The notes: a model not told the origin generated them from the letters alone. A stretch of 64,000 bases of DNA from Moniliella sp. 'wahieum' (GCA_003971905.1 RSEE01000001.1:1-64000); one strand, 5' to 3'; shown: positions 8,768 to 62,531, counted from the stretch's first letter. Program-made: numbers and translations.

Positions 8768-10514
8768 GCCCTCACGCACGACTCGCAACGCTCATGCTTC
8801 CCAGTACGGCGGCAGCATGCTTGTACGCGCCCCCCTCCCCGCTTTCCTCAGCCACGCCCCCATGTCATTCTTGTCGCAGTAATATAATTGCCCTCCGCTA
8901 TGCTTGTATCTGCCGTCGATCCACCGGCCCTTTCTCGGACCGGACTGGCTTGACAACCGCAATGCTGGGACATGTAGCCGTTGTCCGTTCAGTTGCCGCC
9001 GTTGGCCGCCCCGCCCGCTCTGCACCCTACCATCGGGCGGAGGCGACGCACAGTTTAGTTGAACGGGTCAAACTTCAAGGCCAACGCCATCTCGGCTCTC
9101 AATTCCATCGGGCTGGCGCGTGCTGTAGCCACACTGGCTGGTTAGACCCTCGTCCCTGCGGCTTGCAGAGCAAGATGGAAGCGATCAGCACAGAGGGGGT
9201 TCGTTGCTCTGTGTTCCTATATATTCCGCAAAGAGGAAGGAGAAGGGCGAGTAGGACAGGGCGCCTATAGCAAGAGCGTACGAGTATACCAAGCAAGACG
9301 CGCAGCTACTCTACTTGGGTAGGCCGGGATGTGTGGGGGCAGAGATAGGGGAAGGCGAGCAAGACCATGTGCCAAGACTGATTGTGCACCCTCCTCGTCT
9401 CGCCCTCTTGATCCCACCCACTGGCAACACCGGCTCCCTTTTGCACTTTGGTCGTCGGGGGGCCTCGCGTGGGCGGTTGGGACCCTATGACTCGGTGTGA
9501 CATATGTGTCGTGAGACTGTCCTCGTTGCGGCTGTAATGCATGTCAAGCGTGAAGCTTGAAGCTTGAAGCTTGAAGCTTGAAAGGGTGAGTACTTACTTA
9601 GTCGATGAGATCTGAGAACGATATGCGATACCCCCGTTAAACGACGTTACACACGTCAAACGTTAATGCCCCCGGAAAGATACGGGGGAGGCGCTCAAAG
9701 TCCACTGGCGCCTCGCGGCGGCGGGGCGGTGACTAATGTGAAGCTTGAACTAGCTGTACTGGTACTGAACTGACCATCAACACTGACCAACAGTAACTTA
9801 TTGGGGCTCACGTGCATGTCACAGCCAACACTTTGCGTTGTGACTCGGATGTCCTTAACTTTTAACGGAAGGGTGTTCCTGACAACTCCGACTATGTACC
9901 TCGCCGTACATACCCAAGTGCACGGCAGGCACGGCTGGTCTGGACTCCGATATCTCTGAGTATATCTGAGATCTGACTAGGACTGGCCTCTGTCTGGACC
10001 CCTCGGCAAAACACCCAGCCAGACACTTTACATGTTACATGGCAGCACGTGGACCGGTGCGCCAGCCGACATCCCTCCTAGTCCCTACTCGTCGCCCGAC
10101 CGACCACCGTCTTTCGGGGGCTGCGCAGCACAGCAGCAGTGTGCATGCTTCCCTTAACCGTGGCTCGGGCGACAGCCTTCCGCCTGGCCAGGCCCCGGCG
10201 CGATGCAGATGACGTCACGCGTTTTCCGACGGAGTGCACACTGGCTTGGTGCCGTCCCACTTGCACACTCACCCCCCGCCACTCATTTAAAAGGGGAAGC
10301 ACTCAGCTCGTGGCCAGGCGCCGGCGGCCGCCAAGTCCGCCACACTGGCCAGGTGCCGAGGGTTGGATGTGTTGGTGCCAGAGAGTTGCGGCGATTGTAC
10401 GCTCCGCAGTGGATGTCGTCCCCTTTAATACCCGCGCCCCTTTTGCGTGCCTCTTATCTTCTCTCCTCCACCCTGCCCCCTCCCCCCCGCCACTCCCAAT
10501 TGCGTTGGCCCAAC
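8768..10514. other. Intergenic region without recognisable gene
   Basis: About 1.75 kb. Contains a heptamer array (9551-9583), a segment with several GTTAAC/AACGTT-type words (9630-9670), and, before the next gene, a T/C-rich promoter-like stretch. ORFs here are short and show no family features. Confidence 0.5.
9551..9583. repeat. Heptamer tandem array, unit TGAAGCT
   Basis: Nearly five head-to-tail copies of TGAAGCT, so AAGCTT recurs every 7 bp. The same unit recurs at 26991-27018 and 58896-58914, and shorter traces at 56714 and 58270. It is one member of the period-7 class described in the findings. Confidence 0.95.
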
Positions 10515-10997
10515 ATGGTGTGTATTCGCATCCCCCCCTCCTCTGCGTCGTCCGACAGGAAGAGGACGAAGTCGGAAAGAGAATGCTGACCCGCTCTTCG
10601 CTCGGTCTTTGGCAGCCCTCTTCACTCTACCATTACCTTTCCCAAGTCTGCTCCGCCACACCTAAGAAGAAGGAGGTGGAGGGCAAGTGGACGCACTTTT
10701 CGGGGTACGTGCTCCACCCGTCGGACCAGGAGGATGTGGTGCCCGTCTTGCGCAACCATTTGGCCAAGGCCATGCCGGAGAATGCAATGGCCTATGTTGT
10801 TGGCGCCGAGCCCGTTGCTCAACCCAAGACAAGCTCCTTTTCCTGGCGCAAGCCTGCCTGAAACCGAGGATGATGGATCTTACTACGCCATTCGTCCCCC
10901 TCCCTGGACCTTTGCACCACCCAAGAAAGAGGAGCCTCCAACCCTCGAATCTGCGTACAAGGCTCTCCGTGAGCTACGGATCCAGCAAGCGAAATAA
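10515..10997 (+). CDS. Unrecognised small protein, spliced
   Basis: A coding stretch of about 145 codons that I cannot assign. The most economical model is ATG at 10515, an intron directly after it (10518-10558, GTGTGT...CAG, 41 nt, very short), then an exon beginning EEDEVGKRML. Alternatively translation starts at the in-frame ATG at 10583 (MLTRSSLGLW...), whose Arg/Ser/hydrophobic start would suit a mitochondrial presequence. The body includes GKWTHFSGYVLHPSD, LRNHLAKAMPENAMAYVVGA and a C-terminal PPPWTFAPPKKEEPPTLES ending ALRELRIQQAK at 10997. One frame break lies near 10850. The mixed charged and aromatic composition looks like real protein. A small mitochondrial or RNP component is possible, but that is only inference. 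Confidence 0.5.
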
Positions 10998-11904
10998 GCG
11001 CCTCTTAGCTTGATGTTCTCATTCCTCGTATTCGCCACTTCGTCTTCATCTCTTCATCGTCTATTTTTGTTTGACCTTTTTCTTCGCCTTCTCATCTGTG
11101 TGAAGTGCATCCAGCTGGACCTACTTTGCCTCCTCCATCCAATTGGCTTTCGTCATGATGACTCTTAAATTACTGTTTTTGGTTCTCGCACATCACTTCA
11201 AGGACAAGGCCACACCGGCCGGTCACATCGGCCTTTCGGCCTCAATTCTTCCCCTTTTTTACATCGCCCCACTTCTCGCGGCTCTACTGATACTCGGTCC
11301 TCTTCATTACCATCACGACATATCTGCTTCCGTACCCTTGTTTATGGGATCGACCCTGCATCCATACCCTTGGGCCCCAAAACGTGCACAGCTGTGTGCA
11401 CATGCTTTGTCGCCCCCCCCCCCCCTTTTTCTCTTGTCTCTTTTCTCTTCTCTTTCCCCTTTTCCCGCCTTCATGATTTATCCTCTCTCCTTTTTTATGT
11501 TAGATCAGAACGCCCCATGACCCATTTTGTCTGATTCCAACACCTCTCATCGATCTCATCATCTATCTATCTACAGTGTTCTAAAATAGTAACGAGTAGA
11601 CTGTTGGCATCGAAACGCGGGAACGGACGTCCCAAAAACAATAACCGCACCTTCTGTGGCTATACCACGTCCATTTCATTGACAGAGCTTAAGGCTGGGA
11701 CAGGGGAACGCTACGTCCAAACCTAACCGTTCATCTGCGGGGGTTACTTGGAAGCGCCACCAAGATTAAGGGACCAGGGGGATCGCCAGGATATCAGGAC
11801 CTCCGGCTCACGCCATCCGGTCCCGTACCCTAGGAAGCGCGTGTGGACACGGAGAGAACGTGGTTGACATCCGAGCGAGGAACCATTTCCACTGAGACTT
11901 AGTA
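10998..11904. other. Intergenic / retroelement 3' flank
   Basis: T/C-rich 3' end of the preceding gene, then sequence downstream of the decayed reverse transcriptase ORF (read on the minus strand). A short ATCTATCTATCTAC tract at 11562-11575 would, on the minus strand, form a GATAGATAGAT-type tail that could mark the 3' end of the element. No gene seen. Confidence 0.4.
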
Positions 11905-12940
11905 GCCAACTCCTTCCAATGCGCTAACAACTGCCCGCCGTCTTGGTGCCGTGCCGTAGTATCCTCGCGTCGTCAAAACCAGGGGGAAAACGGCTCTTGA
12001 GTGCGTCCCTGGTACTTGGCGTTCTTGTCGCATTCTGCTTGTTAAGCATCCGAAGCAGCTCCTTTCCCGGCGTTCCAAGGGGGTTGCGGTGCTCTCATGC
12101 ACCACCCTCCGGAACGCGTCTGCGCCGCCAGTGCGTGTCGCGCAGCGTGTGGTCTACCTCCATTCCTGATCCTCCGAGTGCTCCGGGCCCCATCACGCGG
12201 TAGTCGGTGCGCTGCGTCCTCTGTCTTCTCCCATCCTCGTCCTCCACCATAGGTTCGTTGCGGAACATGGGTGTCGGGGATGGAGCGTAGGAGCTGGAGA
12301 ATGGGCTCCCGCACTGCGTCATGCAAACGCACCAAACTTGGCCTGGGAGCGGGTGCAAGACATGATGTGCTCCAGCGAGGACATGACCCCGCACTTGCAC
12401 ATGCTGCGCGTGGTGGGCACAGCGTGCGGAGCTGGAGACCGACCTGGACCTGCTGGTTCGGAGAGATCTTGAGGTACGGGACGGACGGAATGGCGGAGAG
12501 CCAGTTGTGGCTCAGCGGGTTGCTGTGCTCAACACACATAGCGACCATCGGCAGCGTCCAGCTTCTGGAGCAGCTCCTGTCGACTTTGTCTCGCCGGCAG
12601 CGTGGCGTTGCTTCGTAAATGCGTTGGCCCTGCCGTTGGCGTCCCGAACGGTCAACATAAGTGGTATAAGATAGTCATTGACCTCGTTTGCCGCGGCACG
12701 GGCGGGGGCCGATATACGAGTAAAGCGGGCTGCCACATCCTCCCAGCCGAAGAGGCAGGCTCATGAGCATGTCGAAGTGGTGTCCTTGGCACCTTGGGGA
12801 TCCTCGTCGCCCCGGATCCGTCTGAACTCCGTACAGATGAAGGCATCAATCTCGGCCAGCACGTCGTCTAGCTCTCCTTCCATCTGCATGGTGCGGAGCA
12901 GGTGGTGGCTATATATATCCTCAATCCTTGGCATTTACAA
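11905..12940 (-). mobile_element. 5'-truncated, decayed LINE-like retroelement (reverse transcriptase C-terminal part)
   Basis: Read 12940 to 11905 on the minus strand across several frames, the order of blocks matches the end of a non-LTR retrotransposon polyprotein. LPLRLGGCG is the end of the RT thumb, followed by ARAAANEVNDYLIPLML. Next comes HNWLSAIPSVPYLKISPNQQVQ and a zinc-knuckle-like MCKCGVMSSLEHIMSC with the expected Cys/His spacing, then HDAVREPILQLLR. A block then resembles the last conserved domain: QRTDYRVMGPGALGG and GMEVDHTLRD. The terminal part reads FPLVLTTRGYYG. The catalytic RT core (YxDD) and the endonuclease are absent, so it is a dead 5'-truncated copy, as usual for LINEs. 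Stops and frame changes occur throughout. Assigned from recalled family architecture, not from a search. Confidence 0.6.
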
Positions 12941-12942
12941 AA

Positions 12943-12971
12943 GTGGTGAGTGGTGACCGGTGACCGGCCGG
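12943..12971. repeat. Heptamer array, GTGGTGA drifting to CCGGTGA
   Basis: Units GTGGTGA, GTGGTGA, CCGGTGA, then CCGGCCGG. It lies right at the 5' border of the truncated retroelement. Confidence 0.85.
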
Positions 12972-13850: not shown

Positions 13851-13951
13851 AGGAGAAAAACATGTGATCAGCTCAACACAATGAGATCTGAGAGGCAATC
13901 TTGAAGGTATGCACGGAGGAGTGAAGCCACTGAAGTGCAAGAACAAAAAAA

Positions 13952-14033
13952 CGCCCCACGTGGGACTCGAACCACAACCGTGAGATGGGTCTCGATGTAA
14001 GATCTCAAATTCTACCGATTGAAATAGCGAGGC
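13952..14033 (-). tRNA. Probable tRNA-Lys (CTT) with a short anticodon-loop intron
   Basis: On the minus strand GCCTCGC at the 5' end pairs over all seven positions (two G-U) with GTGGGGC before the discriminator G, and a T7 run (Pol III stop) follows at 13945-13951. The D arm reads TTTC AATCGGTA GAAT. The anticodon region TTGAGATCTTA ... CTCA has U33 and anticodon CTT, and leaves a 12-nt intron-like insert after position 37, where fungal tRNA introns sit. The T arm has TTCGAGT followed by CCCAC, but only TGTGG on its 5' side. One more G would give a perfect GTGGG/CCCAC stem, the same G-run shortening seen in the genes. Weak pairs at 10-25 and 27-43 leave room for a pseudo-tRNA. Confidence 0.62.
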
Positions 14034-14736: not shown

Positions 14737-14769
14737 CGTTGCGCGTTGCGCGTTGCACGTGGCACGTAC
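14737..14769. repeat. Heptamer array, CGTTGCG drifting to CGTGGCA
   Basis: Successive units CGTTGCG, CGTTGCG, CGTTGCA, CGTGGCA, then CGTAC. The period is fixed at 7 while the unit changes by one base per step. Confidence 0.9.
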
Positions 14770-15029: not shown

Positions 15030-15057
15030 GTGATGTGTGATGTGTGATGTGTGGGCG
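15030..15057. repeat. Heptamer array, unit GTGATGT
   Basis: Three exact GTGATGT copies followed by GTGGGCG. It lies about 250 bp upstream of the TEA1 start codon. Confidence 0.9.
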
Positions 15058-15742: not shown

Positions 15743-15781
<39 letters not shown>

Positions 15782-20636: not shown

Positions 20637-20730
20637 TCCTTACGCTGGACCGCCCCCAGCGTTGGTTGGTCGCGTCGTGTTCTCCATCTCCTCCAATCTG
20701 CTTTCGCAGCTCCTCGGACTCACCTTAACC

Positions 20731-20764
20731 ACTCGCCACTCGCCACTCGCCACTCGCCACCGCC
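20731..20764. repeat. Heptamer array, unit ACTCGCC
   Basis: Four exact copies of ACTCGCC, then ACCGCC, ending one base before the IES2 start codon. It would therefore form most of the proximal 5' UTR. Confidence 0.95.
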
Positions 20765-22155: not shown

Positions 22156-22307
22156 CACAATAGATTCGAGTGCGAGATCGAGCAAATACTTTTTTTGGCC
22201 TGGCTTATTTATTACGGGGCCTGCCGATTGGCGTGGGACGGATCGGGGTGCCGGTGGCCAACCAACGCTCAACGTTCAACTGAACGCCGCCCATCGACGC
22301 CGCAACC

Positions 22308-26806: not shown

Positions 26807-26990
26807 GAGGGGAGGGGAAAGAAGAATCGGTAGAGGTGGAGGTGGAGGTGCTGAGTCGTGGGAGCGAGGGGACGGTTTGGCTGAGCGCTGGCTGAAAGTA
26901 ACGTGAGAGCTTCAACGCTTAAGCGCTGGCGCGCTGACGATTAAGCTGATTAAGTGCTGGGTTGTGCTCAGATCCAGACTTGAGGTCAAG

Positions 26991-27052
26991 CTTGAGGCTT
27001 GAAGCTTGAAGCTTGAAGATGTAACGCGGCTAACGTTTAACGTTTAACCGAA
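26991..27052. repeat. Two adjacent heptamer arrays: GCTTGAA, then TAACGTT
   Basis: Units GCTTGAG, GCTTGAA, GCTTGAA, GCTTGAA (26991-27018), a short linker with TAACGCG, then TAACGTT, TAACGTT, TAACCGA (27032-27052). Two different heptamers side by side. Confidence 0.92.
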
Positions 27053-27557
27053 CCTGTGTACTCCAACGGAGTGCTGACGCTTGGGCGCCTCTTTTGAGAT
27101 CTGAAACTGGGACCGATGAAATCCACATTGGGTACTACCCGTCCCATCCCGTCCCTTCCCATCCGGCCCTTCGCCCGCCAAAGCCGGGCAATCGTCCCAC
27201 TGTCCATGTCGTTGATCACAACATCAACTATTGCCATGGTCTGGCAGCCGGTGGCGTCGCCAACGTCCAACCCTCAAGATTCTGCTAACCCCTTAACCCT
27301 TAGGCTACCCCTTCGAATGCGTGCATCCGACCTCCCGAGCAAAAACGGAGGAATCGATTGGAGGGTAGCGCGTGAATAAAAAAATGAAAGTGCAGGGCCA
27401 GCCGGCCAAAGCGAGGCATGTCATCACGTCATGTCGTGCGCGAGGGGAGCGAAAGGAGAGGCAGAGCGGTCCAAAGGATAGCCCAGGTGGGAACAAGTAG
27501 GTAGACCAGGAAGTAGACCAATAGGTAGCCACACAAAACGAAGGGAGCGTGCGTAGA

Positions 27558-32341: not shown

Positions 32342-32390
32342 CCAACGCCCAACGTCCAACGTCCAACGTCCACCGCCCACCGTCCACGTG
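32342..32390. repeat. Heptamer array, CCAACGT drifting to CCACCGT
   Basis: Seven units in register: CCAACGC, CCAACGT three times, CCACCGC, CCACCGT, CCACGTG. Substitutions never disturb the 7-bp phase. Confidence 0.95.
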
Positions 32391-32774: not shown

Positions 32775-32823
32775 CAATCTGCAATCTGCAATCGATAATC
32801 GACAATCCGTAATCGACAATCTC
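32775..32823. repeat. Heptamer array, CAATCTG drifting to TAATCGA
   Basis: Seven units in perfect register: CAATCTG, CAATCTG, CAATCGA, TAATCGA, CAATCCG, TAATCGA, CAATCTC. Positions 2-5 (AATC) are constant while positions 1, 6 and 7 vary. Confidence 0.95.
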
Positions 32824-48475: not shown

Positions 48476-51400
48476 ATGAACTCGCTCTGGCGCGGCCTCA
48501 GCAGCCGCGACCGCCGCGACCCCGCCGCCGCCTCCGCCGCCGCCGCGCCCAGCCCGCCCACCCCACCGCCACCGCCATCTCCACCGCCTCCGCCGCCCCC
48601 GCCCCGCCCCGCTCCGCCTCCGTCCCGCGCATCGACTCGCCGCCGCCGCCGCCGCCACCGCTGCCGCCACCGCCACCGCCGCTGCCCCTGCCACTGCCAC
48701 TGCCACTGCCACTGCCCCTCCCCCGACGCCTCCCCCGCCCCCCAGCCAGACCCCCCGCTGCCGCCCAGCCGCCGCGCGCGCCCCCTCGCCCCTCCCGCCC
48801 TTCTCCCCATCCCGCCCCACCGCCTCCCCCCCCGTCCCCGCCGGCCCCACCTCTCAGCCGACCACGCCCACATCCTCGCATGGAGCCGCGACGAGCAGCC
48901 CGCTGCGCCGCCCGCCGCGCTGCCCGAGGCTGCCGCCTGGACCCTCCACCCGCGCGTCGCCCTCCCGCCACTGCTGGGGATTGAAAACTTTGGCAACACG
49001 TGCTACGCCAACTCGATCCTCCAGGCGCTGTATGCCTGCCAGCCCTTTCGCTCCCAGGTCCTCCAGTCCTCCATCCACAGCTCCGGCTCCACCCCGTCCT
49101 CCACCGCTGCCACCTCGGTCCCCTCCCTGCCGGCGTCGGCCTGCCTGCGCCTCCCGCGCCCGACGACGGGCCGGTCGTCGCGGCCCAAGCCACCCTGTAT
49201 GCCGCGCTCCATGCTCTCTTTACCAGCATGCATCATCGCCAGTGCCAGGCCCTGCTGCCGTCGCCCGAACCCGAACCCGGTGCTGGCCCGGCCTCCAACG
49301 GCGATGCCAAACCGCCTCCCACGCCCGTCTCTCCTACCGCAACCAAAGAAGGCGGCCTCTTCTCCAAACTCACCTCCCTCTCCTCCACTCCGGCCGAGAC
49401 GAAAAGGCACGTGTGTTCCTTCCGGACGGGGCGGCTATGCTGCGTCCAACTCCATCTCTGCGCCGTCGGGGTGGCAGGATCGGCGGCCGCACTGCCCAAT
49501 GGATCGGCCCAGCCAGCCTCCGGCGCAACGCCAACGATGAATGAGGAGGAGGAGGAGGTGTCGCGGGTGGGTGCGAATGGAACGGCGTTGGTGGCAACGT
49601 CGCAGATTGCCTCCTTTCTCAACGCGCTCAAGAAAAGTAACCTCGAATTCGACTCGACGATGCACCAAGACGCCCATGAAATGCTCAACTTTACGCTCAA
49701 CCGCATCGCGGAAGACCTGTCGCCGCATCAAGATGCCTTGCTCAAGACCTGGGTCCAGCGCCTGTTCGAAGGCGTCTTGACAAACGAAACGAAATGCCTC
49801 ACATGCGAAACGGTACGTCTTCCTCTTTCTTTCTTTTAACCCCCCCCCCCTCTTCAAAAAGGCTGACCCTCCATCCCCTTGCTCTGTTCAGACCACTTCA
49901 CGCGACGAAAAGTTTCTCGACTTGTCCATCGACATTGAGCAAGACATGTCGCTCTCCTCGTGCCTGCGGGCGTTTAGCGCGAACGAAGTGTTGCGTTCGC
50001 GCAACAAGTTCTTTTGCGATGTGTGCAATGACCTACAAGAAGCCGAAAAGGGAATGCGAATCCGTGTGCTGCCCAACGTATTGGCCCTGCACCTGAAACG
50101 GTTCAAGTACGAAGAGCAACTCCAGCGCTTTGTCAAGCTGTCGTATCGTGTCCCGTTCTCATCGGAACTACGGTTGTTCAACACGTCCGAGGATGCCAAT
50201 CATCCCGACACGCTCTACCGTCTCTTTGCCATTGTCGTGCACATTGGTGCCACCCCCCACCAAGGGCACTACATTGCGCTGGCACGTGTCGGTCCAAGGA
50301 CGTCCACGGGTCCGAGGAGCAGTGGGTCTTGTTTGACGACGATCATGCGCAAACCGGTGGAACCCGAGTACCTGAATCGCTTCTTTGGCGATAACCCGGC
50401 AGCTGGTTCGGCCTACGTCTTGTTCTACCAAGCCGTTTCTGGCTCGGACGAGACCAACCCCGCACCCGCCCCCAAGGAAGAGACTGGCGACCTCTTTCTC
50501 CCCATCCCTGACGACCTGCTCTACCGCTACGCGCAGGCGGAGCAGGATGAAATCCGTCGGCGCTCGCCGGTCTGCCCACGCCGTGGTGGAGAAGGAACGA
50601 CACACGTTCTCCTTCCCATGGGGAAGCAACACCATGCCTCGCCTCCCCAAGCCCCAATGGAGAACCACGATGAAAGCAGCAACCCGGCCAGCCTTCCCTC
50701 GCTGCACGCCATGCCCGCCAGCCCGTCCTCCTCCTCTTCGAACGGGATCATCGCCTCTCCCGGTGCGGGCCGGCCGGCGTCGTCGGGTGGGCCCAACGGG
50801 TTGACGTCGTCGAACCAAACACTGGGGCTGGGGCCTAATGGCCACTCCCGTGGCTGGTTTGGCACGTTTAAGCGCGACAAGCGGCAAAACAGTCTAGCGC
50901 CCTCGTTGGCGCCTTCCACCAACTCCATTTCCACCCCCCCCACGCACACCTCCCACGTCTCCTGCCCGCATCGACGACAACGGCGTCGGCGGGAGCGTCG
51001 CACGCCAACTCGGCCGCTCCTTCGACCGACAGTGCCCATACCAGTCGTGCCTCGTTGGTCAGCACCCCGCAGCCGGCCCCGACGCCTTCGCCTACTTTAC
51101 CCCCCCGTGCGTGGGGAGGTGGGGAGCGAGACGCCGCGCCGGACACTGGTTCGGCCCTCCACCGCACCGCGCGGCTCGTCGCGCGGGCCAGCGCCGCCAC
51201 CACCCGTACGCGTGCGTACCGGCTCACTCGTCTCGCGCCGGGCGTGTTGTCCTCCTTTACGTTGGTCAAACCAGAGGAAGAGACCGCGACGCCCGTTGGT
51301 CCGCGGTCCACCTCGCCGTTGCGTCCATCGGTGCTGGCGCGGTCTCCTTCGCCGATGAGCTCGGCACCGCACCATGTACGCAAGGGTCCTGCGCCTCCGC

Positions 51401-52663
51401 CACCGCCACCGCCTGTGACGCAAGCGGGCTCGGGCTCGGGATCGGGATCGGGATCGGGCTCAGGCGTGGGCTCGGGCGGGGGCGCGGTCGAAGTGCCTAC
51501 CAACCCATTTGCCTCGTCCCACGCCTCGTCGGGGGGCGACGCGTCGGGAGGAGGAAGGACAGGCGCAAGGGGGTCCATGACCTTCCCAACTACCTTGCCC
51601 GCTCCCGCCGCATCTGCGTCTGCGCCCGGCAGCCGACGTGGGTCCAACAATCCCTTTTTGGTCTTTGCTCAGCCCAACCGTTTGCCCACCCGACCAGCCC
51701 GCCCACCATCTCCCCTTCCTCCAGTCCCCGCGCCAGTTTTGCCACGCCGGCCAAGGTGCCTACCCAAGCTCCCGCTCAAGCTCCCGCCCAAGCTCCCGCC
51801 CAAGTTCCCCGCAAGCTCCCGCTCAAGCTCCCACCCAGGCTGTACCAGTTGCTGCGTCCTCCGCTCACGCTGAGACCAACCCTGGTCGTCCATGGCTGCC
51901 GCGCCAGCTGTGCCGCCCCAGGCGCTGGTAGGAAGCGCTCGTTGGATGCACACGTGCCTGGGACAGAGATGCGGACGAGTAAGAGTACGCAAGATGTGGC
52001 GGCAGGGCCTTTTACCGTGGTAGCACCTCCCTCTGGGCGACCGGTGTGCCTCGGCCACACACATCGGGCAACATCCCCACCCGGCGCCCGTCGGGTTCGG
52101 GTTCAGGCATGGGTCTGGGCTGGCCTACGAGTCCGCTGTCTGCCGACCGGGTGGTGGAACGGGAGCCATGTGTGGGCACGACGTTGACGCGGCCGAGTAC
52201 GAGTGGGGGTGCGACGCGCGCCCCGCACCCTCCGCCCGTTGCGGTTGCCGTTCAAAGACAAAGACGCGAGCCGGCGTCGGTCGGGCGTGTCGAATCTGTG
52301 GGGTCGAATGCGGGAGGACCGACGGACGAATGGGGAGCAGCCGGGCAGCGGCGCGGCGGCACCGCGACCGAACGTGCCGAGACGGAGCGTATCGTTGCAT
52401 GGGCACGAACACGATGTGCCGCGACGGACGGGTGCCTCGGTGGGTCCCCCCCTGTGCCCGTGCCCGTGCCGGCCTCTGGGTCTACGTCTGCGTCGGGTCC
52501 GCGCCACCTTCGCGGTCCAAGCCTCGGCTCGCCCGACTCGCTCGGCCTGCCTGCCGGGGCCGGGCCCGAGCTGGGCGGCTCGCGCCGGTCGTATTCCCAC
52601 GCGGGACCCAATGGCGGGCGCAAACCGTCGTTGGCGTTCCGCCTGGGCTTAAAGAAAGCCTAG
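48476..52663 (+). CDS. Ubiquitin C-terminal hydrolase, UBP9/UBP13 - USP46 - creB family
   Basis: Cysteine protease removing ubiquitin; fungal relatives (creB, Ubp9/13) act with a WD40 partner. Start [15 protein letters not shown] at 48476, then a Pro/Ala-rich tract. The Cys box [20 protein letters not shown] at 48970-49030 holds the nucleophile. A low-complexity insertion precedes the QDAHE motif ([20 protein letters not shown], 49655). The finger CLTCET is interrupted by an intron (49813-49891, GTACGT...TCAG), then [20 protein letters not shown] and [33 protein letters not shown]. The His box is [15 protein letters not shown] (50250), with the following D/N in FDDDHA. A tail of over 700 residues is disordered, with an [10 protein letters not shown] run (51427-51475), Pro/Ala/Lys repeats (51760-51835) and FRLGLKKA at the end. 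About 1,370 residues; catalytic residues all present. Confidence 0.92.
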
Positions 52664-52986
52664 CTGGGCCGCAAGATGAGGGGGAGCACGTGCCTGCCTT
52701 GGATTTGTCGTGGGCAGGGGTTCGTTGTTCCCAGCCACTCTTTCCCCCCCGCCCTGAACAAAATGGGTTACTTTGTCTTCCTTTTTCCTTACTTGTTCTT
52801 CTCTCTTCTTTCTTCTTTTTCCTTTTCTCCAGGACAGGGCCTCCTACCTGCTCTCTCGCCCTCCCCGCCCTCCCCCGTCTCTGGTTCTGCCCCTGCAGTG
52901 GTTGGTTGCCTGAGTGGCTGAAGTGTTGGGTTCTGCTCTGGACATGTGGACCTTCCATCTTCCTCTTTGCCTTGTTTTGTCTTTCT

Positions 52987-53028
52987 TTCCTCCGTTTCCT
53001 CCGTTTCCTCCGTTTCCTCCGTTTCCTC
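52987..53028. repeat. Period-9 array, TCCGTTTCC
   Basis: Four to five copies in the 3' flank of the deubiquitinase gene. Confidence 0.9.
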
Positions 53029-56000
53029 GTTTTCTTTCTCTTCTCTTCTCTCCCCATTTCCTCTTTCCCCCGTCTGCTCTGTTCGTTTCTTTCTCCTTCT
53101 CTCGCGCTGATAAGCCTGTGAAAAAAGAAAAACAAACCCGCTACTTTCCTTCCTTTTGGTACCTCTCTGCGCCCGCGCCCGCGCCCTCGCCGCTCTTCAA
53201 TATTCAATCTTCAGCGCACTTTTCCTCCTCTTCGCGCCTGGCTGGTGCTATGGTAGGCTGGATGGGGACCTGGTAGCGCCCACGATCTGCTTGGACAAGG
53301 GAGCGGGGGGGGGTAGCAGCTGTTGAACGTTGGCCAATCTCTCTTAGTAGGCATCAAAAAGTGCCAACAACCCTATTGCCCGCCGACCTGCACGTGACGG
53401 GTGGGGGGTGCTGGCTACGCCAACGATCGGGCATATGACGGAGTCGCGTCGACGCGTCCCTCCACCACCTTAAAAGGGGAGCGGTGGTGCAAAGAGTAAC
53501 CATGGCACAAGGCGGAATGGTGGAGCAAGGAGGAGATGTGGAGAGCAATTGGGGTATTTGCGACAAAGATATGGGGGGGGGGACAAAGGGGATCAGTGGA
53601 ACAAAAGGGAGGCGATGGAACAAGGATGATCGGTGGTCCGGAGGTGGTGGGCTCGATCCATGTAACGTGAATTACGACGACCCTGTCACAGGCGTGCCCT
53701 GCCAGGGGGCTCACCCAGGTTGGTGGGGTACACGACTCACGGTAGTTTCGGGGCTTGGGCTATTTGGTGGATCCGAGCCGGGGAGATGGCGTGAAGCCGA
53801 GGCGGCCGCACGCTTGGCAAGGCTGGGTATGCGCCGGCTTGGGGGTAGTAACGTGTCTGAAGCATCCGGGGCTTAGGGACAGGTAGATGCAGTGAAAGAC
53901 AAACACTGCCAGGGCTAGAGCTGGGCAGGGGCGGCTGTCGACATAGCTGTGAAAGGAACCCATGCGACATGCTGATGTGGTAGGGGAATCGACGCCGCTG
54001 AAGGAAGGCTCGCGTGACTGGGCGGATGGAAAGCTGGAGGACGAGGTTGGATGATGAAGATAAGGCAGCTAGGTGGAGACGAGAGGTTGCCTGTATTACT
54101 CAATCAATTGGCTGGAAACGGTCAGGAGTTGGATAGGAAAGGGGGAAGGGACGAAAATGGAAGGTGGGATAAAGGATTCCCACTGATCGAGGATGCTGAT
54201 GACTGTTGGTTGACCCCTTTTTGGTAACCCCCTCCTGTCTAAGCCCCATCGCACTGGGATAGATAATGTTGACAGAGCGAAGCAGACGAAGCTGCTACAG
54301 TGCGACTTGGGAGCACTCGCGATCCTATGGATCAGCTGCAAAGCAGCCTTCAGACAAGGCGTGAAGGCAAAACGGTGAGCCACAAATCTTCAAGCAACGT
54401 TTGAAGGGAAAGAGACATGAGAGAGAGAAGGGAGATGAAGCGAGCAGGGCGTGCACGCCCTGCGAGCGGAACTCTTCCGCCCGGCTAAGTGAGCGTCACC
54501 GATCCACCGAGGGCCGTGCAGGGGAACCCCAGCACTACCCTCCAACAGAAGCAAGCGAAGGCTGCGAAGGCACTAAGAATGTCATCCAATAGCACTTCCT
54601 CGTAGTATAATAGACAAGTAGGGTTCCAGGAGGGCACAAAGTTCACTGCAGGAACGCCGGAGAGGGTTAATACGTTTCCTTGGGTGCGACTCGGTCCGGC
54701 GTTCCCCCGCACAACAGAAGGGAAGAGCGCGAGGGAGCCGTACAGGTTGCAGTATTAAAACGGAGTTGCGGAATGTTTTTCGATTCCTAGTTCTACCGCT
54801 CGCACTGTAACCCACACGTACTCCTAGCCTATTCCGTGAAAATAGTGTAAAACGCTTACTGTTGACAGCGACGGGCAACGGCCAGCATTCTGCAATCGTC
54901 CACCGTTCTCCATCGTCCACCCTGCCAGTTCACCGTTCCATCGTCCACATACTGTGTCCAGTGTAACATGCATGGCGCATATGTCATGATCTAGTCCAAC
55001 AGCCCATCATATCAATCGTTCCTTAGTGCAAAACACACACGCCAAGAAGATCCTAAATCTGTCAATATCTTACACGGTGCGGGCATGTGAGTCTTGTTCT
55101 TGATGCAGGTTGCACGCCGGTGGTTCCGTCCGATGTTCCGTCAGCGTGCCCCCACTGCATGTGAACAAAGATGCTGCTGTGGAAAACGTCTTCGCGAAAA
55201 AGTGTCCAGATGGGGTCTTGGGATTGCACCAAGAGGCACAATCCCTTCTATATCTTCCCTTTTTCATGCATCCGTCAGAAAAGGTCAAGGAGTATGAAGA
55301 GCTCATTGCAGCATCCCCCCTTCTCTTCCCTCTCTCGTTCGCTCGTTTTACTATAAAAGTGGAGCTTGACGCTGCACTGTGATGATAATCCCCCTTCGTA
55401 CTAACTGTGTACACATTCGAGCCCCCTCCGTGCACATCCACAAGGAGCGGTTTTATGTGCCGACTTCACATATCCCACCGTTGAACGTTCTTTGAAACAC
55501 TGTTTTTGAGACGTTCCTCATGAGCTCCTGCTGAGGGAGCTTCTGATAGAATGTGGAGAGCAAAAATCACACATCTCTTCATTTCGATGTTATTGGGTGC
55601 GAGGTCGGACCAGGGTAGCAAAGTAGTGTCCCAAGGCTCCCAAAGTCCATATCCTGCGGGTACGTGGTTATCGAGACGGTTATCCCGGAGGTCTTCGTTT
55701 CCTTCTGAATACAATGTAACGAGAGTCTTATATCAGGGATGAGGTATATCGGTGGGATAAAAGTGATGACTTCGAGGTGTATCTTGTGTTCGTTAATTGT
55801 GTGATGTGTGTATACAGGTACCCACACACAATAAAAGTCCAGTATCTGATCGGGGAGGGCATGTGCAGAGAGGTGGAAAGTGGGTTCATCGTCTCCTATC
55901 GCATATCAACACAGATATATCCGCACAGTGTATAGACAATAGCCCTGCACCCTTTGCGCATTTTGGACCGCTACAGAACTTACAGGGCTGGAACCCCACC

Positions 56001-56351
56001 CCCCCAGCCTCTCCTGATGCATCCAATTCCATCTCTCGTTCTCACTGAAGGGGGGAAGAACGACAACGTCGCGTCTCCAGCCAGTGATAACTATTTTTGT
56101 TGGTTACTTATCAGTGCCTGAGAGAACACCCCTTTATGCTTCATTCCTCAAGTTCAATGTCTTCGAAGCTTCACAGTCTCGCGCCACAGTCCGCTCACAC
56201 ACAACAAAAGAGTGACCACTGTGCTGGAAAACTTGTTTGCCGAAAAAGCAAATCATGGGGTGGTGAAAGGCGAAAGACGAAAACCGAAAAGATATATGTG
56301 AGTGTTGCGTGATATTACAGCCAAAGCGACTTCGGGTACTGTTGCCGGGGT

Positions 56352-56372
56352 GTTACCGGTTACCGGTTACAC
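56352..56372. repeat. Heptamer array, unit GTTACCG
   Basis: GTTACCG, GTTACCG, GTTACAC. Contains the GGTAACC-type word also seen at 60855-60920. Confidence 0.88.
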
Positions 56373-57230
56373 AGAGTATAGTTATAGACAGCTGAAAGCC
56401 CTGGACTTTTATCTACGCCTTTTGGATGTAAAAGTTGACGGTGTGTGGGGGAAGGGAAGATGGTGACGTGTGACGAGAGAGAAGCGACAGTGACCGGTGG
56501 GGCGTATTAGTCGTGAATGGAGGGGAACCGCATTTATCACGTTTATAAACCCACCGCGTTCACATGCTCCCATACATTCCCTCTTACGTTTGAACGTTGA
56601 TGAATGTACCGTGCGAGGTGAACTGAATGATGTCGAGAAGCGTGTCCTTCGAAACAGTGTAGAAGGGCTCGGAACCCTTGAAGCTAAACTGTCCATTTTA
56701 TAGTGCAAAAGAAGAAGCTTGACGCTTGGAGTGCCAAAAGTTTTTAGTCTTCGAAGCACGAAGTCTTGATGATTTCGAAGAGCTTGAAGCTTGATGCCCC
56801 TTTTGAAGCTTTTGTAAACACGTCGAAAAGAGGGCATCTGCCGACAAAACTCCGACGGTGTGTATCCTGTTCCATCATTGACGCGGCGGGGTATCACGTT
56901 TCTTCCCTCCGGCAAAACACGTGAGTACATCTATATGATTCTCTCGTTTTTTGCTAGGGCTCAGGCGCTCAGGCCGCGCTCAAGCCTGGGCGCCTGTGCT
57001 CATATCATCACACTCGTCAGTGGATGTCGTTGATATCTGTGAGGCGTGTGCTTGGCGGTGACCAAGGGGATGGAGAAGGGAGGCTGTGACTGATGGCAAC
57101 CGCTGTGGAAAGCACGCTGCGCGCTGATGAGTCGATGAGAAGTAATCCTGCTTCCCCAGCGAGATGTCCTAAGTGCTCTGTTACTAGCTATGATGCAATG
57201 GTGGAGCTGTGAAGGGAAGACCAGAGCTGG

Positions 57231-57268
57231 GTTGAACGTTGAACGTTGAGTCGTTGAACGTGTTAAAC
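57231..57268. repeat. Heptamer array, unit GTTGAAC
   Basis: GTTGAAC, GTTGAAC, GTTGAGTC (one base longer), GTTGAAC, then GTGTTAAAC. AACGTT is created at each junction. Confidence 0.9.
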
Positions 57269-57521
57269 CCAGACTGTGGAAGGGAGAAAAAGAGAAGAGA
57301 AGGAGAAAAGGAGTGGCACTACTTAGGCCAGAGTATTATAGGGGTATACTCACCTGTCGTGCCTGCATGTGTAAGAATATCAGAGCGATATCTTCGGGTG
57401 TGGTTGGCCCCCAGCCTCAGAGCCTTGGTCAACATACTGAGAGTGTGCTCAGCGCTTGTTGGTCTGTGCGGCCTGAGGTCAGGCCTGAGGCTCATCGATC
57501 GTCAGCATCACTACTAATCAC

Positions 57522-57579
57522 CTAGTCACTAGTCAAGCTCAAGCTAGTCACTTGTCACTTGCCACTTGCCACTAGGCCA
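57522..57579. repeat. Heptamer array, CTAGTCA drifting to CTTGCCA
   Basis: CTAGTCA, CTAGTCA, an interruption, then CTAGTCA, CTTGTCA, CTTGCCA, CTTGCCA, CTAGGCCA. A stepwise series of single-base changes in register. Confidence 0.92.
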
Positions 57580-58722
57580 CTGCGTGTCACTAGCATCACT
57601 TGTAACACATATGTGTCATAGTGAACCATTTAACTGTACTATAGGAAAGCGTAGTCGAGACCTCATGCACCTCATATGTCATGTGGAGATTCTCATTCGA
57701 CAAACTCAGCGGCTCAGCCTGAGCCTTGAGAACCCTGAGCGTCTGAGCCTTGGCCCTGAGCGCTTGAGCCCCGAGTCTGAACCTTGAGCGCCCGCCTGCG
57801 CCCGCTTTTGAATCGCACACGATGAATCCACAGCACTCAATAATTCAACCTCCGGGCTGAGCGATGTTGTGGGTCGGTGTTATACTCAGCACTGGCACGT
57901 GCATCATCGATCATCATGGATGCCATGTGCCAAATGCCCCACATGTCTCGGTTTGCGACCACCCCCTCCAGCGGCCGCACAGAAGAGGTAACGACTCGCG
58001 TGCAAGTTGCACCTTTTTCTCGGCGCCCAGACCCTTTTCGCAGAGGTCTGGTGGCGCTGATCAGTATCAGTCCGGTAGCCCTGTCGTCCAAAACATGCAA
58101 CCAGGGTATACGATTGCCTAAAGTGTACAACGGAAGCGCGTATGTCGAACAAAAGCCGGTCCCACAGATCCCAGGGCGGTCCCTTCCTGGTCCCTAGCCG
58201 AGGAGCACTGCCGTTCCGCCCTCTGACACCCTTTGGTCTCCTGAGCGCTGAGTCATCCAAGTCTAATAAAGTTGTTTGAAGCTTGAAAAAGCTATACTAC
58301 AGCAGTTCAATGAAAGAAGCAGAGAGATGCCCAAAACGAATTATGTGATTCCAAAACAGTCTCCTCTTGTGTGGTTAGGGTAGGATACTGGTAGAATCGA
58401 ACTAGGGAAAGTGATCTAAAAATGTGGACCCCTCCTCTTGCGTGGGGTGATAGAGCTGCGGGGAATTTTCTTGATAACGCAAAGTTTAATGAGTCCTCAG
58501 CCTGAGGCCTGAGGGTTGCCTGGGCCTGAACGCCAACCACTAGCCACAAGTAGTATAGTCATTTTAGTCACTAATCACAGTATAAAGAGTCACTATTAGT
58601 CCCCCAGGGTCCATTGTTTAACCACAAGCAACACACATATGAATATGACACCTTTTAACGACGTGTACCCTTCTCTAAAATGCATATGGACTCCACACAC
58701 GTTTCCGTTCTCTACGCACCCC

Positions 58723-58785
58723 ACGAGATACACTGAGACTTACACGAGATATACTGAGACTTACACGAGATACACTGAGACTTGA
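58723..58785. repeat. 21-bp tandem repeat, three copies
   Basis: Units at 58723-58743, 58744-58764 and 58765-58785. They differ by one base in the middle copy and diverge at the last three bases of the third. Each 21-mer divides into three heptamers (ACGAGAT, ACACTGA, GACTTAC). Confidence 0.95.
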
Positions 58786-58837
58786 ACCTCGTTCGCTCTG
58801 GGGGATAAGGCGCTCAGGCCAACTCTGCCAAGCAATC
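58778..58837 (-). other. tRNA-like element (A-box and B-box words, no acceptor stem)
   Basis: On the minus strand TGGCAGAGTTGG (58819-58830) resembles a Pol III A box and GGTTCAAGTCT (58778-58788) a B box, about 40 bp apart. The 5' septamer GATTGCT finds no partner downstream; instead the 21-bp repeats follow the B box. It could be a tRNA relic or the head of a tRNA-derived SINE. Confidence 0.35.
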
Positions 58838-58895
58838 TAGCGGTGCGCGCTCCCTTCCTATACAATTAATGATCCTTATTGTGCATATCATTCTG

Positions 58896-58914
58896 TGAAG
58901 CTTGAAGCTTGAAG
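58896..58914. repeat. Heptamer array, unit TGAAGCT
   Basis: TGTGAAGCTTGAAGCTTGAA: two full units plus flanks, same unit as at 9551 and 26991. Confidence 0.9.
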
Positions 58915-59214
58915 TCGCATGGGTATATTATCTATCGTGACGCGTGATGAGAGGAGAACCACCCTTTGCTACTATCCTTTCAAATTTAGGCTTACTCCTG
59001 CTACCTTCAATATAGATCTGAGTGATCTCGAAGGAAGAAGCAGAAAAGCCGGGGGGAGGTTTTCGTTGTGGATGCCACTCCGCAACTTTCTTCATTGCAC
59101 ATACACTCCGAATTCAACCTCACATTGAACCTGTGAGAAAGATTAATGAGACGGAAGGTTAGGATAAGTGCGTGCGGGCTGGGTTAGCGTCACATGCTTT
59201 TCACATACCTTTTA

Positions 59215-59262
59215 AGCATCCGTGTGTGAAGCGTCCGTGTGAAGCCTCTGTGTAAAGCCTAT
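59215..59262. repeat. Imperfect 13-bp tandem repeat
   Basis: GCATCCGTGTGTGAA, GCGTCCGTGTGAA, GCCTCTGTGTAAA, GCC: three diverging copies. Confidence 0.8.
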
Positions 59263-59876
59263 GGAGGGCACGGATCAAAGCACGCGGCAACGCAAAAGAG
59301 ACTGGGAAGAGGGTATGGTAGGACTGGATACTGCTGAAGGAGAGGATAAGAATGAAGGATGTGTGGTTCTGAGGAGAGGCATTACAGGGGAGCACAGAGG
59401 GAGCGTCCGGGCGGATAAGAGTGGTGAGATGCCCGTCACACAGGATGGTGTACTTGGAGCATCTCCCCAACAGATATGACAGAGGGCCTCACCGGCGTCT
59501 CTGTCTCACAAGCGTCTCTGTCAGGATCAAACCCACTTGATCACCGTTTGAATACCAAGTTGACTGTGGTTCCTGTTTTGTTCAAGACCCTGTTTTCCCC
59601 CTTTGACTATGCTCCCCTTCTTCCTCCGTGTGATTCAGCTCGCATGCTCTCTCTTCTCCGAGGCATACATACCTCGCCTTCTTTCCATTCGAGATGAGTT
59701 TGATCCTCATCATTTCCCCCAACTCCATCTCCTGGTAGTCTCCCCTTTGGCAGTCGTGAAGCTCCGTAACATAATGGCTGATACGCGATGCTGATGATGC
59801 GGACTATATACAATGGCAAGTGGACTGCACTAGTATTATCGAGGGTTTTAAGGGCGGAGCTGCACCACAGATAATG

Positions 59877-59890
59877 CCCCCCCCCCCCCC
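59877..59890. repeat. C14 homopolymer
   Basis: Uninterrupted run of about 14 C in otherwise A/T-richer sequence. Confidence 0.85.
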
Positions 59891-60880
59891 AGTATATGTA
59901 ACGCAACCAAAACGCGAGTGAGAGCAAAAGTAGAGCGTAAGAAGCGCGAGCTGTGGCTTCTCTCAGCATATAGGTGTGGCTCGTTATGATAACCGCGTAC
60001 CGCGCATAACGGAGTAGCTAGTAGTGTAGCTAGTATTAGTCGCTTAAAAAGTCACTGGGGAAGGTTCACCAGGGTCACCGGAGACCCTGAGGCCTCAGCC
60101 TGGGGCACCCAGTGGGTGTATAAATCATGTGCATCATGTGCACCAAAACACGTTACTTGTGGAAGAATTGAATTGGAGCATTTTCTCGTCGGAGCTGCTA
60201 TTCTGGTTGGGCCTCAGGCCTGAGCAACGCTCAGCTGAGCGGCTCAACGCTCAACTGAAAGAATGGGGCTAAGGCAAGGCACTTTACTGGGCGATCGATG
60301 GGTGAGCACGATGAATCGGCCACGCCAATATAAGGTCTCTGAAAGCGATTGTCTCTCCGTTAACTCAGAAGTAGCTCTACCCTAAAATAAGCTAAAAGAA
60401 CAATTGTGCACTGTGTAAAGATGAAAAAAGGAAACAGTCAACAGAGACAACTTCTTGTAAGCTCCTGAGGCCTGACGCAAGTCCGACCTTGTGTGCAACA
60501 GGGAGAAAGGAAAGAGAGGGGAACGAGGCGTAAGGGATAACCAGCCCTTGGTGCAACTTCCGCTTTTCACCAATGGCTTTTGACCACAAAAGTCAATGGC
60601 ATGTGTACTGCGATCGCATCGTTCCAGCCACATTATCCTCTAACACCATGCATCAACCGCTCAACTCAACGTACTAGCTCAGCTCAGCGGCTCCGCGCTC
60701 AACGTTGTTCATCAACAGGCTTAGTTCCTTCCGCCCCCTCCGCCTCTTCCAGATCTTCGGCACCCCACCATCCCCACCCTCCCCACCCTCGTATTAGCAT
60801 TGCATCCTTGGCGTTCGCTGTCACCTTGTTGGTCCTTCGCTTGTAACCATGTAACCGGTAACCGCTGGTGGAAATTTTGC

Positions 60881-60916
60881 AAAGGGCAACTAACCGCAAC
60901 AAAGGGCAACTAACCG
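60881..60916. repeat. 20-bp tandem duplication, then GGTAACTCC repeats
   Basis: AAAGGGCAACTAACCG occurs at 60881-60896 and 60901-60916, exactly 20 bp apart. Just downstream (60929-60952) AACTCCGGT repeats with period 9. Confidence 0.92.
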
Positions 60917-61663
60917 GTTCCGGTATCGGGTAACTCCGGTAACTCCGGTAAGCTTTCCACTATTTTTATAGCCGTCAGCTTCAACATTCAAAATTCAACA
61001 TACTTGAAGCTTAAGCGCTGAACGTACGCGCGCGCTGAGCGCGCTGACGCTGAACCCGAACGCTGATGAGACAGAACGCCTCAGTTCTAAGATCCTTGCC
61101 GTACACCCAGCCATGCAGACGGCGGATGTACGTGTGTGTGGCCTGTGTTTGTTGCATGGATGGACAAAACACGTAGTATCAGACAGTGGGAAGTTAGTTG
61201 TATGACAGCCGACTGGTGACCGGTGACCTGAGATCCTACATTGAGGAACGTGGCGTATTATAAGCACCAACAAGTGTTCCTACGACACTGTGTATCATGT
61301 AACAAACATTGCCGCAGGTACCCACCGGTTGGAGGCCAGCCGGCCGGGCACCCCAGTAGGATGGTAATATGAACGTATGAACCCGATGTAGCAGATGTAA
61401 TGGCTGTAACATTGAGCCAGTGCCTATGAGCGGGCTGTGCAGGTTCTGCGCGTGTCTACATGTGGATTTTATCTTTGGGCCCCCAGACCCCGTCTGCCTG
61501 GTAGAACCCAACCTCCCATACCTCCGGGGCCGGTGCATTGGGATTGGAACAGAAGGACTATCGATGAATGATTAATGATTCATGACGCGCACGCGTGATG
61601 ACACGTGTGACAAGTGACAAGAAAGGTGATGCCGGTGATTCAGTCCTTCATGATGCATGACTA

Positions 61664-61750
61664 GTGACATGTGACAGTGACTAGTGAGTAGTGATTGTCA
61701 GAAGCCACTAGCTAGTCACTAGTCACTTCACTTGTAGTGATTCTAGTGAC
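61664..61750. repeat. GTGACTA heptamer array facing its inverted partner
   Basis: GTGACAT, GTGACA, GTGACTA, GTGAGTA, GTGATTG run from 61664 to 61697. They are followed by GCTAGTCACTAGTCACTTCA (61711-61730) in reverse-complement sense. The two halves could fold into a long hairpin. Confidence 0.85.
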
Positions 61751-62310
61751 CAAATGACTATATCGACTTTGTGAGCAAGCGAGAGAGTGTGACATAGAAG
61801 AAGCGATTGCAGAGAAAGGCGATGTGGTGAAGCTTCAAAAGCTAGCTTGAAGCTCTTGAAGACGCATTCGACTGCTATCGGATCTAAGAAGAGATCTAAG
61901 AGGCGTTGGATCTGGAGACGCGCTTGGTACCTTCCCTTGTGGCACACATGACATCCCACGCTATCACATGTCACATGCCATGTTCAAGACGAGGGAAGGG
62001 GATGCGGGTGGGAGAACTAGGTAGCCACCAGACAGGACCTCTTCAGTCTGCTAACGTACGAAGTGAATGTGAGTTGTGAGTACTGAGGGTACTGAGGTCT
62101 GTCTGAGGCCCCTGAGGGCCTGAGGGCTTGCGGTACTGAGTACCGAGTAAAGATGAACGCGAACGCTGATCCATTACGATGTCGTGCCAACGTCCAACAT
62201 GCCAATGCCCCACGACCAACACGCCCAACCCAGACCGAACCATGGATCAAAACACCATCTCCATGCCTTCAAGCTCTTGGTCAATATACGTTCAATGAGT
62301 AATGATTAAT

Positions 62311-62348
62311 GAACGTTGAACGTTAAACGTTGAACTTCAACGTTAAGG
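62311..62348. repeat. Heptamer array, unit GAACGTT
   Basis: GAACGTT, GAACGTT, AAACGTT, GAACTT, CAACGTT, AAGG: register kept apart from one 6-bp unit. Confidence 0.9.
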
Positions 62349-62403
62349 TTATTGAATCAAGCTTGTTCGTCTTCCAGGTTGTTACTCGGTTGGAACAATC
62401 TGG

Positions 62404-62454
62404 GTAGTGAGTAGTGAGTAGTGACCAGTGAGTACACTGAGTACTGAGTATTGA
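62404..62454. repeat. Heptamer array, GTAGTGA drifting to GTACTGA
   Basis: GTAGTGA three times, CCAGTGA, a 9-bp GTACACTGA, GTACTGA, GTATTGA. The third base series (TGA) is constant. Confidence 0.92.
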
Positions 62455-62511
62455 CGAAGTTGAGGTACTAACTAAAAACGACGAGTGTCCTGAGAATCTG
62501 ACGCGAGGCGG

Positions 62512-62531
62512 GTGACCGGTGACCGGTGAAC
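62512..62531. repeat. Heptamer array, unit GTGACCG
   Basis: GTGACCG, GTGACCG, GTGAAC. The same heptamer word occurs at 12950-12970 and 61215. Confidence 0.85.

Follow-up and report, generated by a model that had tools for sequence, protein, structure and literature searches.

Period-7 arrays in the window

The stretch considered here, the first 64,000 nt of RSEE01000001.1 of Moniliella sp. 'wahieum' (GCA_003971905.1) and called the window in the following, contains many short tandem arrays and isolated repeat pairs with a period of 7 bp. In the main class of these repeats the unit is a trinucleotide TNA followed by a 4-bp palindrome, and such repeats are probably the scars of a recurring insertion of 7 bp which is copied from the flanking sequence. 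For most counts the full window was combined with a separate sample of 200 kb (20 x 10 kb, from 18 contigs), giving 264 kb of an assembly of 69.5 Mb in 223 contigs. Positions are those of the window, and no strand is assigned to the features.

Runs which could be accounted for by a shorter period were removed beforehand in the period scans. Exact runs of length at least 12 in the window numbered 14 for period 7 and 15 for period 6, with at most 4 for each of the remaining periods from 2 to 30; five local Markov shuffles yielded means of 0-0.2. In the 200-kb sample (runs of at least 11), 30 runs had period 7 and 17 had period 6, and each other period from 2 to 30 gave 12 or fewer. The excess at period 7, which had been described in an initial annotation of the window, is therefore present in both data sets and close to zero in the shuffles of the window. 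Its view of period 7 as special stood only in part, since in the window the excess at period 6 is about as large (15 runs of at least 12), although without self-complementarity. A secondary excess at periods 18 (12 runs) and 23 (10 runs) was observed in the sample (L009-L028, runs of at least 11).

All 15 units listed in that annotation were recovered as arrays; 14 are distinct, as GTTGAAC and GAACGTT are rotations of one unit. The palindromes reported at the unit junctions were also borne out. Among period-7 runs of at least 9 in the 264 kb, 53 of 76 units were self-complementary at 6 of the 7 positions, where 10% would be expected, and the centre was TNA in 49 of these 53, i.e., the unit was TNA plus a 4-bp palindrome. 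Full self-complementarity was rare at the other periods: 0/19 (period 5), 2/65 (6), 0/14 (8), 2/27 (9), 1/21 (10) and 1/14 (11). Contrary to what had been proposed, the unit sequence is not free for 8 of the 15 listed units (7 of the 14 distinct ones), which consist of TNA and a palindrome.

The seven listed units of other composition are GTGGTGA, CGTTGCG, GTGATGT, ACTCGCC, CCAACGT, CAATCTG and GTAGTGA, and both arrays given earlier as examples (32342 and 32775) are outside the TNA rule. Period-7 arrays of this kind were found at 14737-14756 (CGTTGCG), 15030-15053 (GTGATGT, with TGA and the non-palindromic TGTG), 20729-20760 (CCACTCG), 32349-32372 (CCAACGT, with an ACGT core and CCA in the place of TNA), 32771-32793 (TCTGCAA) and 62404-62424 (GTAGTGA, in which TGA is kept and the non-palindromic GTAG is one change from CTAG). 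Some resemble the rule with one base altered in every copy, for example CCA for TCA next to ACGT, which would fit a unit that first decayed and then expanded. The pattern is real and unusual, and these remaining arrays are unexplained by an insertion process of +7 bp.

The TNA rule

Two TNA copies separated by four bases enclosed a palindrome in 252 of 641 cases (39%) in the 264 kb, with a background of 7.3%. N was the same on both sides in 207 of the 252; palindromes were enclosed by 207 of 388 same-N pairs and 45 of 253 pairs with different N. Control trinucleotides at the same gap remained at background (AnT, 23/486; CnG, 98/1559; GnC, 109/1900). Gaps of 2-13 were scanned for TNA and 2-8 for the three controls, among which AnT at gap 7 was the one notable rise. 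Nearly the whole repertoire of 4-bp palindromes is used, namely 15 of the 16 possible ones.

Many same-N pairs were located in the window. The bases to the left are matched by the palindrome at 7087-7096 (TGA CATG TGA), 9967-9976 (TGA GATC TGA), 56785-56794 (TGA AGCT TGA), 57526-57535 (TCA CTAG TCA), 58938-58947 (TGA CGCG TGA) and 60466-60475 (TGA GGCC TGA), and those to the right at 9606-9615 and 13882-13891 (both TGA GATC TGA), 10028-10037 (TTA CATG TTA), 42879-42888 (TCA AGCT TCA), 60852-60861 (TAA CCGG TAA) and 61964-61973 (TCA CATG TCA). Neither flank fits at 9739-9748 and 58277-58286 (both TGA AGCT TGA), 27095-27104 (TGA GATC TGA), 35568-35577 (TCA GTAC TCA), 42773-42782 (TGA TCGA TGA), 56591-56600 (TGA ACGT TGA), 58242-58251 (TGA GCGC TGA) and 62077-62086 (TGA GTAC TGA).

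Further same-N pairs are located at 1348-1357 (TTA GTAC TTA), 7446-7455 (TCA GGCC TCA), 22269-22278 (TCA ACGT TCA), 32477-32486 (TAA ACGT TAA), 32983-32992 (TCA GATC TCA), 53197-53206 (TCA ATAT TCA), 57904-57913 (TCA TCGA TCA), 58503-58512 (TGA GGCC TGA), 61217-61226 (TGA CCGG TGA), 61716-61725 (TCA CTAG TCA), 62438-62447 (TGA GTAC TGA), 62702-62711 (TCA GCGC TCA) and 63051-63060 (TCA CGCG TCA). The pair TGA CCGG TGA at 12954-12963 adjoins a GTGGTGA repeat (12942-12956), and TTA ACGT TTA at 27037-27046 is situated inside a TAACGTT array (27031-27048). Pairs with different N were TGA GTAC TTA (9587-9596), TAA GATC TCA (13998-14007), TCA AGCT TGA (26986-26995), TTA AGCT TGA (43063-43072), TCA GGCC TGA (57479-57488 and 60214-60223), TGA GGCC TCA (60088-60097), TGA AGCT TCA (61828-61837) and TCA ACGT TAA (62337-62346).

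Chains and templating by the flank

Linking such pairs gave 192 chains in the 264 kb, about 0.7 per kb: 149 with two TNA, 30 with three, 9 with four and 4 with five. Among the 43 chains with at least three TNA, 30 were uniform and 13 switched the palindrome between units while the TNA phase was kept; slippage of one unit therefore cannot be the maker of these 13. Uniform chains in the window are formed by TGA AGCT at 9551-9581 (five TNA) and, with three TNA each, at 27000-27016 and 58896-58912, by TAA CGCG at 32881-32897, TTA CCGG at 56353-56369, TGA ACGT at 57233-57249 and TGA CCGG at 62513-62529. Mosaic chains are present in the window as well. The chains ac-TGA GTAC TGA TCGA TGA-tc (32185-32201), ca-TGA TGCA TGA CTAG TGA CATG TGA-ca (61651-61674) and aa-TGA TTAA TGA ACGT TGA ACGT TAA ACGT TGA-ac (62303-62333, five TNA) match their own flank at both ends; in ct-TGA AGCT TAA GCGC TGA-ac (61005-61021) the left end fits and the right one does not.

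The letters of the palindrome follow from the neighbouring sequence. The elementary step reads XY-TNA to XY-TNA-Y'X'-XY-TNA, or its mirror image from the right, about equally often. A match to the flank at one or both ends was present in 140 of the 192 chains, compared with a mean of 27 and a maximum of 43 in 1000 flank shuffles. The first palindrome fitted the left flank in 88 chains and the last one the right flank in 89, near-equal numbers such as two strands should give. Among the ends of the 13 mosaic chains, 19 of 26 matched their own flank, and 1 of 26 did so when the ends were swapped. Of isolated same-N palindromic pairs (pairs within longer palindromic chains left out; L042 and L045 included), 99 of 127 had a 2-bp flank identical to the corresponding palindrome half, and in 77 of these the agreement was confined to one side. 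Full flank-matched pairs, for which pairs within one array entered separately, amounted to 181 for TnA (132 in the sample, 49 in the window), with 0-19 in nine other NnN classes, 0-3 per shuffle in 20 local Markov shuffles, and none in 50 kb of E. coli K-12.

Genome-wide scale and location

In the complete assembly TNAAGCTTNA occurred 9,833 times, and a reversed control with the same letters, a palindromic core and AnT flanks 204 times; with a non-palindromic core of equal composition (TNAGACTTNA) the numbers were 280 and 247 on the two strands. For TNACCGGTNA, 4,772 occurrences contrasted with 1,285 of its control, and a doubled TAACGTT unit was found in 328 copies versus 3. The 14-base start of a mosaic chain from 61649 was present at 53 places, from contig C1 to C194, and its control at none. 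Extrapolated from the 192 chains in 264 kb, the whole genome would contain about 50,000.

Open frames were taken in any frame on either strand, without gene models. Frames of at least 200 codons cover 66% of the window, and 10 of its 57 chains start within one; the arrays are accordingly mostly outside long open frames. The density of chains in 500-bp tiles decreased with their GC content, from 2.0 per kb at 45-50% to 0.21 at 65% or more. Both the avoidance of open frames and the GC trend fit a neutral, frameshifting insert which is removed from genes.

Differences between homologous contigs

The window region has a diverged copy in contig C55, with 96% identity in a gene and 82-93% in the array-rich stretch, and C54 and C177 constitute a second diverged homologous pair. 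Within the two contig pairs identities of about 95% and of 82-92% were noted, and between the pairs about 83-85% (one gene region). The presence of such contigs suggests a hybrid, a polyploid or a phased assembly.

Alignments totalling 22.9 kb, from which those of fewer than 200 columns and matches of C55 outside window positions 50000-64000 had been dropped, contained 477 indels. The motif TNA, 4-bp palindrome, TNA was overlapped by 10 of the 20 indels of 7 bp, but by 15 of the 457 indels of other sizes. In three of these ten the inverted half is missing from the shorter copy: TGTGACATGTGATG in the window near 7084 corresponds to TGTGATG in C55 (here the 7 bp belong to the pair at 7087-7096), TTTGAAATTTGATA in L043 to TTTGATA in L044, and GATAATCGATAAGG in L043 to GATAAGG in L044. 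A fourth case, beyond the ten, is TGTGCCATGTGACG in C55 against TGTGACG in the window near 56469, and fits with one later base change. Seven bp are absent from C55 also at the pair TGA TTAA TGA (61569-61578), and so is the unit GTAG TGA which follows the pair TGA CTAG TGA (61678-61687). Several other 7-bp indels are plain changes in the copy number of an existing unit (58896, where C55 has one unit fewer, 62499 and 62552). As an outgroup L043 and L044 gave no information near these events, since they align to the window only at 4259-5876.

A segment of about 310 bp (window 62107-62417, compared with C55, L036-L039) is inverted between the two copies, with flanks in the same orientation. By eye, motifs of the TGAGTACTGA type are located at its ends, where they may have acted as inverted repeats.

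Proposed mechanism

We consider it probable that the main class represents the scars of a recurring self-templated template switch (snap-back), which arises at TNA and adds a fixed 7 bp. At a site XY-TNA, the growing 3' end of about five bases (XYTNA) would leave its template, perhaps during replication or gap-filling, and fold back around TNA. The folded end would copy Y and then X from itself, once and in reverse, and synthesis would resume at X on the original template, where XY had been vacated. The product XY-TNA-Y'X'-XY-TNA would be longer by exactly 7 bp (2+3+2) and would hold a 4-bp palindrome between TNA copies with the same N; an event on the opposite strand would lead to the mirror product, with the dinucleotide on the right as its template. 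As each product keeps TNA sites with the same flanks, events would recur, same-strand events building uniform arrays and a mixture of left and right events mosaic ones, which point mutation would later blur. The number of copied bases could be set at two if fraying were limited to about five bases.

A scan of fold-back geometries (stems 1-4 and loops 0-8 except for the smallest combinations) agrees with this scheme. Stem 2 with loop 3 gave 190 left and 205 right cases, compared with 88 in a non-complementary control and 18 in shuffles, and the loop was TNA in 241 of the 395. Stem 3 with loop 1 (159 and 168, control 55) comprises the same sites, read otherwise. Only these two geometries were both numerous and at least twice the control column; most geometries exceeded the shuffles, owing to the general abundance of tandem repeats. 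Fold-backs of any other stem or loop length were rejected, since none stood out against the non-complementary control.

Several observations weigh against a snap-back insertion. No fold is predicted for a single heptamer (0.0 kcal/mol with DNA parameters), and the rates for individual dinucleotides track stacking energy only weakly (Spearman -0.25, p = 0.35); hairpin stability was dropped as the driver for these reasons. Simple hairpin chemistry offers no reason why CNG or GNC should fail, and the strict copy of two bases is narrower than known template switching. The direction, a gain of 7 bp, is inferred, and a loss is also possible at individual sites. Pairs with different N are enriched in palindromes, too (18%), for which the model has later mutation as its sole account. 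Weak rises were seen for TNA at gap 2 (30% versus 23%) and gap 5 (10% versus 6%) and for AnT at gap 7 (20/381; 5% versus 2%); the rise of TNA at gap 11 (9% versus 0.3%) is an echo to be expected from two units. Half of the distinct listed units (7 of 14) are left out by the TNA rule. Neither flank fits in 52 of the 192 chains, which decay could explain, and a flank match exists also in 59 of the 157 isolated same-N pairs that lack a palindrome; the latter are either plain duplications of period 7 or events that have decayed, and the rule does not tell the two apart.

Alternative explanations

The initial annotation was right that ordinary slippage is inadequate for one fixed period across differing units and that some mechanism must generate them. 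For the main class no spacing constraint has to be assumed, as a mutational process of fixed geometry yields the fixed period; free-sequence arrays under such a constraint were therefore rejected for this class once its units proved to be TNA plus palindrome. Slippage or tandem duplication of existing 7-mers, with hairpin-forming palindromic units favoured, would explain the copy-number changes at 58896, 62499 and 62552, the 30 uniform chains among 43, the predicted folding of three tandem units and the resemblance of the 59 non-palindromic same-N pairs to plain duplications; but successive units carry different palindromes in 13 chains, three births add an inverted half which the shorter copy does not contain, and periods 5, 6 and 8 show no comparable self-complementarity, so that slippage as the source of the class appears improbable. 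About equally improbable is an enzyme, either dedicated or domesticated (a nuclease, recombinase or transposase), that makes a cut or nick of fixed geometry at TNA, from which repair produces the 7-bp product. The strict need for TNA and the copying of exactly two bases are tighter than expected of polymerase error, and stacking energy predicts the rates weakly, all of which would suit an enzyme; by reasoning, however, simple schemes with a 3-nt staggered cut result in a complementary N or a 2-bp insert, unlike the product. Taken more broadly, a dedicated TNA-specific activity, either a cutting enzyme or a special fold-back polymerase, which writes 7-bp flank-templated inserts across non-coding DNA, is still a rather doubtful proposition.

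Some PIF/Harbinger-type elements duplicate a 3-bp TNA target. Excision footprints of DNA transposons of this kind, with two bases from each inverted terminus forming the palindrome, were attractive after the chains had been seen: the same-N flanks on both sides (207/252) look like target duplications, and nested footprints would yield a 7-bp period. This idea was set back by the flank templating and by counts of inverted ends, and is now considered very unlikely. The palindrome follows the genomic flank in 140 of 192 chains instead of a fixed element end, 15 of 16 palindromes occur, and inverted ends flanked by TNA with exact arms of 7, 8 and 9 bp showed no clear excess in the 264 kb (TnA 51, 17 and 5; AnT 48, 15 and 7). 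With shorter arms TnA exceeded AnT (733 and 490 for 5 bp, 168 and 141 for 6 bp); the counts for CnG and GnC were above those for TnA throughout. Selected binding sites, i.e., arrays of dyad motifs kept for regulation or chromatin, could be suspected from the position of 47 of the 57 window chains outside long open frames and from the rise in chain density with falling local GC content. Such a role is scarcely credible, since 15 of the 16 palindromes are used, their letters are predicted by the flanking bases, no single site sequence is conserved, and a frameshifting insert would be kept out of genes without any selected role. Least of all do we expect an artefact of sequencing or assembly: only one assembly was used, and reading frames of the window look broken in places by eye, but the pattern extends across many contigs (as with the 14-base example), left and right flanks are fitted equally, and homologous contigs have the pattern in common or differ in it. 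On balance, the snap-back insertion fits better than slippage alone, transposon footprints or binding sites.

Other features of the genome

The genome looks fungus-like eukaryotic, with intron-like signals (by eye), an alanine-aminotransferase-like gene and, at the start of a contig, ACCCTA repeats. A cysteine pattern resembling Zn2Cys6 was seen by eye near 63930 and was not confirmed by Pfam, to which 29 residues were given. A search of the window against Rfam gave no match. A dispersed repeat connects window positions 11670-12289 with L009 1213-1847 (645 aligned columns, 86% identity). Elsewhere in the assembly, eight matches to the bacterial-type rhodopsin family were obtained on C8, C15, C23, C39 and C43, and some of these matches may represent exons of a single gene; no cyclase was present among the open frames scanned at the rhodopsin locus.

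Implications and comparison with known systems

Very short template-switch insertions are hard to recognise, as they pass for ordinary indels. The rigid signature described here (TNA, two inverted bases, +7) makes the process countable, traceable from one homologous contig to another and accessible to in vitro tests. The process would account for a class of period-7 repeats without selection, and illustrates how palindromes can be written into intergenic DNA by a mutational bias. Were an enzyme responsible, this would be a new kind of sequence-specific insertion activity; a dedicated activity would amount to a micro-insertion system with, by extrapolation, tens of thousands of scars, which lengthens intergenic DNA.

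No description of a TNA rule with flank-templated 7-bp inserts was found in the titles and abstract openings listed by the searches made in an open-licence library. CNG triplet repeats also have self-complementary units of odd length, with one N.N mismatch, and are prone to expansion, with a period of 3. There an existing array expands; in the repeats described here it is the flank that dictates the new units. Direct repeats of period 7 in intergenic DNA are known from prokaryotes (e.g., TAACTGA), where heptanucleotides were the most abundant class in most repeat-rich genomes and a link to polymerase slippage was proposed (PMC4679880, citing the survey of Mrazek et al. 2007); those repeats have a fixed unit sequence, and the available text describes no palindrome or flank rule. 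Mobile palindromes of fungal mitochondria, including the double-hairpin elements of Allomyces, are likewise short palindromic insertions in intergenic DNA, but they belong to organelle DNA and contain other elements such as A/T tracts, with no TNA rule in the portion of the account available (PMC7218506).

The closest parallels are template-switch mutations and small inverted triplications. Short-range template switches insert a short stretch copied as the reverse complement of adjacent sequence, after which synthesis goes back to its original template; in the four-point model, those whose return point precedes the switch point look like plain insertions (PMC7954356; PMC8794818). As in these mutations, the events described here are seen as differences between related sequences, and the insert is a reverse complement of bases close by (in 99 of 127 isolated pairs and 140 of 192 chains). 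The great-ape template switches have a variable copied segment (2->3) with a median length of 12, and no fixed loop sequence is named in the available text (PMC7954356), while here two bases are copied, the loop is TNA, the gain is 7 bp and sites are hit repeatedly. The small inverted triplications of FEN1/rad27 mutants share with our repeats the order duplicate, inverted piece, duplicate (here XYTNA / Y'X' / XYTNA) and the self-complementary microhomology at the junction (PMC13334657). They arise in repair mutants or tumours and have a median duplicate of 148 bp (7 bp to >10 kb) and a median spacer of 30 bp (PMC13334657). The repeats of the present assembly are far from this size range of tens to hundreds of base pairs, having duplicates of 5 bp, an inverted piece of 2 bp and a loop of 3 bases, all of them fixed, and they are very numerous in a single assembly. 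The process thus resembles template-switch mutations and small inverted triplications, but is distinguished from both by its fixed geometry and its very high density.

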